Shown here in pieces: positions 34,278 through 37,980 of a stretch of 64,000 bases of DNA. Each line of letters begins with the position of its first letter. Position 1 is the stretch's first letter. The position numbers and the translations under genes were made by a program. This stretch comes from Promethearchaeota archaeon (GTDB taxonomy: Archaea > Asgardarchaeota > Lokiarchaeia > Sigyniarchaeales > SOKP01). Where the stretch lies: the NCBI GenBank assembly GCA_030606485.1, contig JAUWGH010000004.1, positions 62,001-126,000 of the forward strand, in the 5' to 3' direction. The notes under the pieces are model-generated. The model searched no databases. It was not told the origin of the DNA and saw nothing but the letters and a program-made list of their open reading frames with translations.

Positions 34278-34489
34278 TTTTTTTTTATTTACTTTTCTAT
34301 TATCTAATATAAATATTATCCTTAAAAAATCTTCGTTTCAAAATTTTAAAATTGTTAAGATAATGTAATGATAATCTTTTTTAGTCATATAAAATTTCTT
34401 TTAATTAAGATTTACAGTTTTCTTACGGGACGATTCAAATTTTTGAAAAAGATATTGAAGACACTCTAGAAGTAGAAGATCAGATTCAA

Positions 34490-36097
34490 GTGTTTATCGA
34501 TCAAATTTTAACTTCAGAAAATAAAGAAAATAAAAAATTCTTAATTTTAGAATTAATAAAATTTATCTCCACTGAAGCCAAAAAGATAGCAGAAATGGGA
34601 GACTTTTTTGAAGCTGCAGAAATTTTATCATCTACAGCAAATTTATTGGAAGAAATTGATCAAGATATTGCAAAAGAACTCTTAAAGAATGCAATGAAAT
34701 ATTGGGATAAACAAATAGAGACTTGCAAAAAACAAGCTAAATTTCTTGAAATTGCTGAATTACACATTAAACAAGCAGAAATATATCGAGACAAATTCAG
34801 GAATACAAAGAAAGAGAAAGAAAATATCCTTTATGCTATCCAATTCCTAAATCATGAAGCCGATGTTCGTCTTGAATTCAATGAGTTAGAAGCGGTTGCT
34901 CGAACATTTCAAAATATCGCGAATTTATATAACCAGATTTCAAATTTTAGAAAAGCAATTAAGTTCAACAAAATGGCAATTAAACTTGCTAAGGAGCACG
35001 GCTATTACCACATCCTTCAATACACCTATCAGCAATTATTTTCTTGTTTTTCTGAGTTAGGCGATTATAATTCGGCTAAAGAAATTGTATTAGTTGGAAT
35101 TGAATATTTCGCTTCTGAGGCATTAAAATATGAGCAAAAGGACATTCTCAACCTAAATTTGTCCGCACTTTACCAAATTATAAAAAAATTATATTTTATG
35201 TTAAACGATACGGATAACTATGTTTCTTATGCAAAAAAAGAAGCGAGTACATATATAAGCATTGCACAATCCTTAGGTAATGATCCTACTGATGCAGAAA
35301 AAAAAGGAACTCTATATCGCGGAGCAGCATTATGCTATAATGAAATTCAAAATAATCTGATTGAGTGTGCATCATGTTTTTTCCTAGCTGGAAATTTTTT
35401 TCATTCAATAGAAAAGAACAGTGATGCAGCAGAAAATTATAATAATGCAGCAATGGTATTTGGGCAAATAGGTAATTACCAAAAAGCTTTTGAATTATAC
35501 ATCAAGGCAGCATTAAATTATCAAAATATAAATAACGTTAGAAATTGTCTTGAAAATTTCTTGAATGCATATGATCTTACTCTTAAAGAGGATATTGAGT
35601 TTAATAGAACTGAACTATACAATTATCTTATTCAAGGACTAAATAAATACGCCAAAGAAAAAATAAAAACAAAAGAATTCTATTCAGCAGCAACGTCTAT
35701 TTTAGAAAGTCTTAAATTTTACTCAAGTCTCAATAGTGCGCGTTTTAGTCCAGAAATATTTGCTGAAATGGTTAGGAGGATTTCGAAAAATTACTATAAA
35801 GCAGCAAGTTTTAAAACCATTCGACCACGCAATATACGATTTAGTTATTTTTTAGCTGCGCTATCACGCCTTTTATTAAAACAAATTGATGAAGCTAAAG
35901 AAATTATGAAAGAGGTTAATACGAATGGTAGCCGAGTGGAAAAATATAAAGCAATTGTAAATCAAATCATTGAATGGATCAATGAAGATAAAGAAATTTT
36001 AATATCGGATTTTCCTCAAAACATACAAAAATTTATTTTGCGATACGACGAAGTTAAGTATATTATTTCTTTATTTGAAAATATTCATGAGTCATAA
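34490..36097 (+). CDS. TPR-repeat protein
   Basis: At least 535 residues made of helix pairs. Repeats are visible such as NQISNFRKAIKFNKMAIKLAKEHG, FSELGDYNSAKEIVLVGIEYF, NSDAAENYNNAAMVFGQIGNYQKAFELYIKAALNY: the TPR pattern A-x-x-x-G-x-Y-x-x-A. There is no HTH or catalytic domain. The first ordinary start is GTG 34490, but the frame is open from 34409 and reads IFEKDIEDTLEVEDQIQ before it, so an ATT start at about 34439 is possible. A 36-residue secreted-peptide gene follows 109 bases downstream on the same strand. The protein could bind a peptide or protein partner. Confidence 0.85.
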   Translation: MFIDQILTSENKENKKFLILELIKFISTEAKKIAEMGDFFEAAEILSSTANLLEEIDQDIAKELLKNAMKYWDKQIETCKKQAKFLEIAELHIKQAEIYRDKFRNTKKEKENILYAIQFLNHEADVRLEFNELEAVARTFQNIANLYNQISNFRKAIKFNKMAIKLAKEHGYYHILQYTYQQLFSCFSELGDYNSAKEIVLVGIEYFASEALKYEQKDILNLNLSALYQIIKKLYFMLNDTDNYVSYAKKEASTYISIAQSLGNDPTDAEKKGTLYRGAALCYNEIQNNLIECASCFFLAGNFFHSIEKNSDAAENYNNAAMVFGQIGNYQKAFELYIKAALNYQNINNVRNCLENFLNAYDLTLKEDIEFNRTELYNYLIQGLNKYAKEKIKTKEFYSAATSILESLKFYSSLNSARFSPEIFAEMVRRISKNYYKAASFKTIRPRNIRFSYFLAALSRLLLKQIDEAKEIMKEVNTNGSRVEKYKAIVNQIIEWINEDKEILISDFPQNIQKFILRYDEVKYIISLFENIHES

Positions 36098-36131
36098 TTC
36101 ATTTTACTCTTTTTTTTAAAAAATAAAGACC

Positions 36132-36139
36132 TTTAAATA
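36132..36139 (+). promoter_or_regulatory. TATA box upstream of the small peptide gene
   Basis: TTTAAATA at 36132-36139 is a good archaeal TATA element. A start of transcription about 25 bases downstream would fall near 36160, just before the inverted repeat and about 47 bases before the peptide ATG. Confidence 0.5.
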
Positions 36140-36160
36140 CTAATTTTAAGAATGGATAGC

Positions 36161-36180
36161 GTGCAAAAGTAAATTTGCAC
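36161..36180 (+). promoter_or_regulatory. Inverted repeat / hairpin GTGCAAA-N6-TTTGCAC
   Basis: A perfect 7-base inverted repeat: GTGCAAA at 36161-36167 and TTTGCAC at 36174-36180 around a six-base spacer. It starts where transcription from the TATA box at 36132 is expected to begin, so it could be an operator that blocks polymerase or a 5' mRNA hairpin. It is notable in AT-rich DNA because each arm has three G/C bases. Confidence 0.55.
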
Positions 36181-36206
36181 TAGCTAACAAAAAGGTGATT
36201 ATTTAA

Positions 36207-36317
36207 ATGAATAAGAAGAGTATTATTGCATTAGCAATCTTATTAGCGGTTGCATACGGAATTAATATGTCTATGGCAGGAGTGGCTATTCCTGGCTGTG
36301 CTGATGGAGTTCCGTAA
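36207..36317 (+). CDS. Small secreted or membrane peptide with signal sequence (36 residues)
   Basis: ATG 36207 is preceded by AAAGGTGAT (36191-36199), a good Shine-Dalgarno site at seven bases. The product has a basic start (MNKK), a hydrophobic core (SIIALAILLAVAYGI) and a small-residue end SMA that fits signal peptidase cleavage, leaving GVAIPGCADGVP (12 residues, one cysteine). It has its own TATA box, an inverted repeat at the likely transcription start and a T-rich run after the stop. Each of these is seen in the sequence. A secreted signal peptide, a pheromone-like product or a small membrane peptide are all possible. The preceding gene encodes a TPR protein. Confidence 0.7.
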   Translation: MNKKSIIALAILLAVAYGINMSMAGVAIPGCADGVP

Positions 36318-36339
36318 GTAATTCAAGCTAATAAGTTTA

Positions 36340-36355
36340 TTTTTTTCTTTTTTTT
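36340..36355 (+). terminator. T-rich terminator after the small peptide gene
   Basis: Sixteen bases with fifteen T and one C begin 23 bases after the peptide stop codon. Oligo-T runs end archaeal transcripts. The rest of 36318-36603 is AT-rich without further coding signs. Confidence 0.5.
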
Positions 36356-36603: not shown

Positions 36604-37980
36604 TTGCATGGACCAGTAGAACCGTTTAAGATTAAAGTGGTTGAGCCCGTTAAGATACCATCTGAGAAAAGAAGACAAGAAGCAATAAGAGAAGCAGGAT
36701 TTAATACTTTTCTACTTCTATCAGAAGATGTTTTTATTGATTTACTTACAGATTCGGGAACATCCGCAATGTCTGATAACCAATGGGCGGGAATGATGCT
36801 CGGAGATGAGGCTTATGCGGGAAGTAAAAATTTTTACACCCTAGAAAAAGCAGTGCAAGATGTCTTGGGTTATTATTATATGGTACCCACGCATCAAGGG
36901 AGAGGCGCCGAGCATTTGATGTCTAAAAATTTAATTAAACCAGGTCAGCTAGTTCCAAGAAATATGTATTTTACGACTTCGAAATTGCATGTAGAATTAT
37001 CTGGTGGTATTATGCCTGATGTAATCATTGATGAAGCGCATGATCCAGAAAATACAAATCCATTTAAAGGAAACATTGATCTAAAGAAATTGGAGAAATT
37101 AATTGATGAACATGGAGTTGAAAAAATCGCCTATATTAATATTGAAATGGATGTAAATATGGCTGGAGGCCAACCTGTTTCAATGCAAAATTTGAGTGAA
37201 GTATATGAATTCGCCAAAGAGCATAAATTAAAGGTTATTTTTGACGCAACGCGTTCAAGTGAAAATGCATACTTTATTAGAGAAAGAGAAAAAGGATATG
37301 AAGATACTCCTATTATTGATATTCTCAGAGAAATGATGAGTTATTCTGATGGTTGTATTTATTCTGCGAAGAAAGATTGTCTAGTGAACATTGGTGGCTT
37401 TCTTGCAACTCATGACAAGGAAATTTTTGAAAAAACCCGATCTGAAGTTGTTGTGTACGAGGGTCTTCACACATACGGTGGAATGGCGGGGCGTGATATG
37501 GAAGCTGTAGCAAGAGGTTTGCGGGAAGGGACCCAATATGAATACCTTAAATATAGAACTAACCAAACACGATATTTTGGAGAGTTACTCATAAAAGAAA
37601 ACATTCCTGTTGTGAAGCCAATAGGTGGTCATGCAGTATTTCTTAATGCTTTAAAGTTTTTACCCCATATACCACGGGATCAATGGCCTGCGCAAACTCT
37701 TTCGGCTGCAATATATGAAGACTCGGGTGTCAGATCCATGGAGCGTGGAGCAGTTTCAAAAGGAAGAGATAAAATTACAGGTGAAAATATCTTTCCCAAG
37801 TTAGAATTAGTTCGACTTACTATTCCCCGTAGAGTTTATACAAATACACATATGGAATACACCGCGGAATCAATCATAAGGCTTTATGAAAAGAAAGATA
37901 CAATTCCAGGATTAAAAATGGTTCATGAGCCAAAGTATCTTAGGTTCTTTCAGTCAAGATTTGAACAAGTTAGCCTTTAA
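36604..37980 (+). CDS. tpl: Tyrosine phenol-lyase (beta-tyrosinase)
   Basis: A PLP enzyme that splits tyrosine to phenol, pyruvate and ammonia. The 458 residues align by eye with bacterial TPL along the whole length: MSDNQWAGMMLGDEAYAGS, VPTHQGRGAEHL, NMYFTTSKLH, AGGQPVSM, the PLP-lysine region YSAKKDCLVNIGGFL, YGGMAGRDMEA, and GVRSMERGAVSKGRD. The SMERG block carries the arginine that separates TPL from tryptophanase, which has a different sequence there. Start is TTG 36604 (an in-frame TGA lies just upstream). It is rare in archaea and may be acquired from bacteria. Confidence 0.88.
   Translation: MHGPVEPFKIKVVEPVKIPSEKRRQEAIREAGFNTFLLLSEDVFIDLLTDSGTSAMSDNQWAGMMLGDEAYAGSKNFYTLEKAVQDVLGYYYMVPTHQGRGAEHLMSKNLIKPGQLVPRNMYFTTSKLHVELSGGIMPDVIIDEAHDPENTNPFKGNIDLKKLEKLIDEHGVEKIAYINIEMDVNMAGGQPVSMQNLSEVYEFAKEHKLKVIFDATRSSENAYFIREREKGYEDTPIIDILREMMSYSDGCIYSAKKDCLVNIGGFLATHDKEIFEKTRSEVVVYEGLHTYGGMAGRDMEAVARGLREGTQYEYLKYRTNQTRYFGELLIKENIPVVKPIGGHAVFLNALKFLPHIPRDQWPAQTLSAAIYEDSGVRSMERGAVSKGRDKITGENIFPKLELVRLTIPRRVYTNTHMEYTAESIIRLYEKKDTIPGLKMVHEPKYLRFFQSRFEQVSL

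Follow-up and report, generated by a model that had tools for sequence, protein, structure and literature searches.

A small gene with its own expression signals

In the 64,000-nucleotide stretch of Lokiarchaeal DNA analyzed here (the window), a reading frame for a TPR protein (34439–36097) is followed, after a gap of 109 bases, by a frame of 36 residues (36207–36317), as the initial annotation had reported. Both lie on the plus strand, as do all window features described below. The small frame is predicted to encode the precursor of an exported peptide, consisting of a signal or transmembrane part, MNKKSIIALAILLAVAYGINMSMA (36207–36278), and a putative mature 12-mer, GVAIPGCADGVP (36279–36314), which is near-constant among the copies within a genome and varies by genus. 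The cut is predicted between A24 and G25, from the sequence and from an AxA pattern in most relatives. The TATA box, Shine–Dalgarno site and T-rich end that had been attributed to the small gene are all present: an archaeal TATA box, TTTAAATA, at 36132–36139, the motif GGTGAT at 36194–36199, with GGTGA/GTGAT-like motifs before most family members, and a poly-T, terminator-like tract at 36340–36355. The hairpin proposed near the expected transcription start (36157–36186) does fold, at −10.8 kcal/mol, but is weak on its own (z = −1.8) because 9 of 200 shuffled sequences fold equally well.

The promoter association extends across the family. Exact TTTAAATA boxes lie 51–87 bases upstream of the peptide gene at 20 of 27 loci, where 0.03 would be expected per 110 nt and fewer than one in total; the same box is found at roughly 10% of 361 other genes. 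A run of five or more T residues occurs within 60 nt past the stop codon at 26 of the 27 loci, a raw count that has no AT-matched baseline. Hairpins are frequent in the 5′ untranslated regions, which at 20 loci fold slightly better than shuffled sequences (mean z of −1.2); together with the Shine–Dalgarno sites that lie within stems, this is no more than suggestive because several of these loci are related; among other genes, none with a comparable layout was found to serve as a control. At the second copy of the gene in the window's genome (C1), a hairpin of quite different sequence occupies the same place (z = −2.8). Short hairpins at L124 and L139–L143 hold the Shine–Dalgarno site within the stem, a possible translational switch; in the window copy the site lies outside it.

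The TPR frame has its first canonical start codon, GTG, at 34490. Its product may possibly start at an in-frame ATT (34454) or be a shorter protein. Two sister genomes (L136 and L149) have ATG at the position of this ATT.

A constrained peptide family in Lokiarchaeia

The peptide frame that the initial annotation had singled out is conserved. Protein and profile searches of 228 genomes of the phylum recovered 42 copies in 24 Lokiarchaeal genomes (E ≤ 4e-13), with up to four copies per genome and all of them confined to one order of class Lokiarchaeia. The precursors are 35–40 residues long and run from a basic N-terminus through a hydrophobic segment with YGLS to a tail of the form (A)GVSxPGCxxxxP, the Y-G-L/I-S motif inside the helix being conserved. 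Most members combine a signal-like segment with the AxA pattern, from which cleavage is predicted; in four f4 genomes, position −3 is occupied by W, a residue unfavorable for signal peptidase I. Named matches in the genome collection all belong to Candidatus Lokiarchaeota or Lokiarchaeia bar one, a weak match (46%) in a Burkholderiales metagenome-assembled genome, which was regarded as chance. Searches of Pfam, NCBIfam, PHROGs and PDB sequences returned no significant match to the peptide, and the family, which had no name before, comprises very short, probably exported peptides confined to the Lokiarchaeal branch of the Asgard archaea. Core family members occur in genera g1 and g3–g7 and were not found in the well-sampled genera g2 and g8. 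Genus g2 contains a divergent subfamily (L157, L160, L161, L165 and L167) with a matching gene, promoter and terminator layout, whose tails are Gly/Pro-rich (NWFPPGGGMP, VGYFPGGGTP, VGFIPGGGVP and similar).

Comparison of paralogs shows how strongly the frame is constrained. The second copy in the window's genome (C1:159575) encodes an identical protein and differs at 10 nucleotides, at synonymous sites only. Because the same protein recurs at E of about 1e-18 at this second locus and in sister genomes, with only synonymous changes except at the start codon, the observation is far above chance. Paralogs within G000–G003, G008, G036 and G039 carry 0 non-synonymous against 4–13 synonymous codons in the 20-residue signal part, and 0 against 2–9 in the tail. 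Across within-genome pairs with identical proteins, dS is about 0.5–2, near saturation, with zero amino-acid changes. Recent gene conversion would erase synonymous differences; protein identity is therefore kept by selection. The small non-zero dN values are explained by serine codons that switch class (TCN/AGY) and by pairs whose signal parts have diverged.

The small frame is a genuine, strongly constrained protein-coding gene. Family membership, coding constraint and its own promoter support that part of the initial proposal in which a conserved gene, transcribed on its own, encodes a short peptide for export. Genes of 36 residues are easily missed by annotation, and among the archaea most closely related to eukaryotes they can be extremely constrained.

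Tails match within genomes and differ between lineages

The 12-residue tails, of the form GVSxPGC....P, vary between genera: they are identical in 12 of 14 within-genome pairs and in 0 of 348 between-genera pairs, although the pairs are not independent. In three genomes (G016, G007 and G031), the signal parts of paralogs have accumulated 6, 8 and 5 non-synonymous changes, respectively, while the tails show 0 non-synonymous changes against 9, 3 and 7 synonymous ones (pooled Fisher p = 0.00026). This pattern of selection suggests that the functional part of the precursor is its tail.

A syntenic locus with the order signal peptidase I–Alba–peptide, common to genera g5, g3 and g4, carries three different tails. 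The tail at this locus equals that of the genome's other copies in G008 (g5) and G007 (g4), and in G043 (g3) it matches only in part (SESSP versus SEAHPKL). Two of three tails agree in G021, and a third copy in G016 has a deviating tail, GVSIPGLKP. Matched tails within genomes and differences between lineages are the pattern that would be expected of a processed, lineage-specific peptide signal.

Two further candidate exceptions were set aside. The odd fourth copy in G036 (L122) was not accepted as a true tail mismatch: its contig was probably misbinned into this genome of family f2 from genus g3, because its neighbor is 86–91% identical to g3 loci. The L122 contig and the g3 loci are about as alike as the g3 loci are among themselves. 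An A-to-V change in two G021 loci was not taken as a parallel change, as a short conversion tract is possible instead.

Peptide genes stand alone

The peptide genes are solo genes whose flanking genes vary by locus, with no constant partner. The window copy lies between the TPR gene and a tyrosine phenol-lyase gene and the C1 copy beside genes for a TPP enzyme and adenylosuccinate synthetase; flanks elsewhere include Alba and signal peptidase I, an Rce1-type protease, a ThiF protein, a metallo-hydrolase and others. Across the family loci, we found no receptor, exporter or protease gene that travels with the peptide. A multi-helix membrane protein, F9, was considered as a receptor and rejected; it lies near the peptide in two genera and occurs also in genera without it. 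A family of multi-helix membrane proteins of ~272 residues (L116:9312–10127 and L107:10200–11021) occurs near peptide genes in two genera, is common in Lokiarchaeales and has no match in Pfam or NCBIfam. In two g5 genomes a 1,208-residue protein, also with no Pfam or NCBIfam match, is encoded directly upstream of the peptide (L107:5232–8855), and a relative directly downstream in L138 (g6). A radical-SAM locus in L120 and L144 was not taken as orthologous, and hence not as shared between families, because the proteins are only 27% identical.

A candidate lineage-specific peptide signal

The explanation that we favor, while giving it slightly less than an even chance, is that the gene's product is exported, processed and used as a signal specific to its lineage. 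The solo gene would be transcribed from its own promoter, and the N-terminal signal segment would insert the product into the membrane or carry it across. Cleavage, probably after A-x-A, would release a 12-residue peptide of the GVSxPGCxxxxP type outside the cell. Every copy in a cell would then yield the identical mature peptide, with lineages differing from one another. One mature peptide per cell combined with differences between lineages would fit a peptide that is read by a partner specific to the lineage; the simplest case would be a pheromone with a sensor in the membrane. We consider export likely, and we infer signaling from the behavior of the tails. As 57 of 58 relatives encode histidine-kinase-type ATPase domains, sensing at the membrane is possible, though not indicated. 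A fuller version, which we hold to be possible, is an Asgard peptide-pheromone system of solo, multi-copy genes, with one lineage-specific 12-mer per genome that selection keeps matched across old paralogs and with a putative membrane receptor, in which the g2 subfamilies (NWFPPGGGMP and VGYFPGGGTP) would be further pherotypes.

In the Gram-positive pheromones of the SHP/Rgg and enterococcal cAD1 types, a membrane segment precedes or contains the active peptide, and the product is lineage-specific. The Lokiarchaeal family resembles these signal-sequence- or lipoprotein-derived pheromones in its 35–40-residue precursor architecture and lineage-specific product. It differs from them in having no adjacent Rgg- or TraA-like receptor and in its Gly/Pro/Cys C-terminal tail where they have a hydrophobic peptide, and its sequence was not found to be related to theirs. 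In the open-access literature, an incomplete sample, we found no description of Asgard archaea signaling through a secreted peptide, and open-access full texts on RRNPP systems in archaea and on small secreted proteins of Lokiarchaeota contained nothing on the family. The family offers a concrete synthetic 12-mer, a selection pattern and loci for RNA sequencing and peptidomics.

Possible alternatives: membrane microprotein or toxin-like peptide

The signal part is, in several genomes, no more variable than the tail, and the membrane segment may therefore have a function of its own. The main rival reading, which we rate as rather unlikely, accordingly takes the product to be an uncleaved, single-pass membrane microprotein with its GVSxPGC tail outside, which would act as a small subunit or a regulator in a membrane complex or would form homo-oligomers. 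It holds this rank because the membrane segment is unchanged in several genomes (in G000, G008, G036 and G039 it is no richer in amino-acid changes than the tail, at dS of about 0.5–2) and because W occupies position −3 relative to the presumed cut in f4 members; the conserved Y-G-L/I-S within the helix would also suit it. A microprotein of this kind is harder to reconcile with the three genomes in which the helix diverges and the tail stays constant, with solo genes that have no constant partner and with the patchy distribution of the family.

An improbable alternative is a toxin-like membrane peptide of type I under RNA-level control, through hairpins of which some sequester the Shine–Dalgarno site. 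Like the type I toxin peptides Ldr, Ibs, TisB and Fst, the family is small, hydrophobic and multi-copy and has a structured 5′ leader; the genes are solo, and both the mean folding of the 5′ untranslated regions and the stems at L124 and L139–L143 would be in keeping with such control. Unlike those toxins, it has a conserved, polar Gly/Pro/Cys tail that is matched within genomes, which would be unexpected for a pore toxin, and it lacks an antisense promoter signal: antisense boxes of the TTTAAATA type, the type scanned for, occur at 2 of 27 loci against about 2.4 expected, which is background level. Viral contigs and phages contain no family match, and a viral or phage origin was rejected.

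Readings that involve the flanking genes

The initial annotation had likened the TPR gene and the small gene to an RRNPP pair, in which the adjacent TPR protein would bind the re-imported peptide. The parallel has a basis in the short exported pro-peptide that is predicted here and in the gene order and 109-base spacing, which are the same in four genomes of genus g1. This adjacency is confined to g1. Among 58 relatives, 45 carry the TPR gene as a single copy, and it is kept in genera without the core peptide family, g2 and g8 included; outside g1, TPR homologs have no peptide gene downstream, and in G043 the two genes are on a single contig, separated by 3.7 kb that contains other genes. The identical second peptide copy of the window's genome adjoins other genes. 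We therefore place the TPR protein outside the peptide system, and its proposed role as peptide receptor is not borne out.

Structure and transport also speak against the RRNPP reading. The TPR protein matches SNAP and TPR_12 in Pfam and is modeled as an all-helical solenoid of about 25 helices (pLDDT of 88). The best Foldseek matches in the PDB are LGN/Pins, OGT and Ctr9, all with a low TM-score, and none of the best 50 is an RRNPP protein. A search at E ≤ 1e-10 found no SBP_bac_5, the Opp binding protein, in 14 of the 23 genomes with the peptide, among them G008 at 99% completeness, and re-import through Opp therefore cannot be the general mechanism. Set beside Rap/Phr, NprR/NprX, PlcR/PapR and AimR/AimP, the present case thus differs in a pair that is not conserved, an importer binding protein that is often undetected, the lack of an RRNPP-type structure among the top matches and an archaeal host. 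We regard an RRNPP-type pair as very improbable.

A TnaC-like leader (attenuator) peptide of the downstream tyrosine phenol-lyase/tryptophanase-type gene (36604–37980; TIGR02618) has next to no probability: as with TnaC/SecM-type leaders, the frame is short, precedes an amino-acid lyase gene (by about 290 bases, in four genomes) and ends in Pro-stop, but its tail contains neither Trp nor Tyr, its own terminator-like T-tract follows it, the genes downstream of the family vary by locus, other copies preceding unrelated or convergent genes, and the lyase occurs in g2, g8, g9 and g15, where no core family member was detected. The occurrence of the lyase without the peptide and the varied downstream genes refute a general role as leader peptide, and we judge the lyase gene not to be regulated by the peptide frame. 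The lyase itself scores 716.4 bits, just below the NCBIfam cut-off of 720.7 for tyrosine phenol-lyase.
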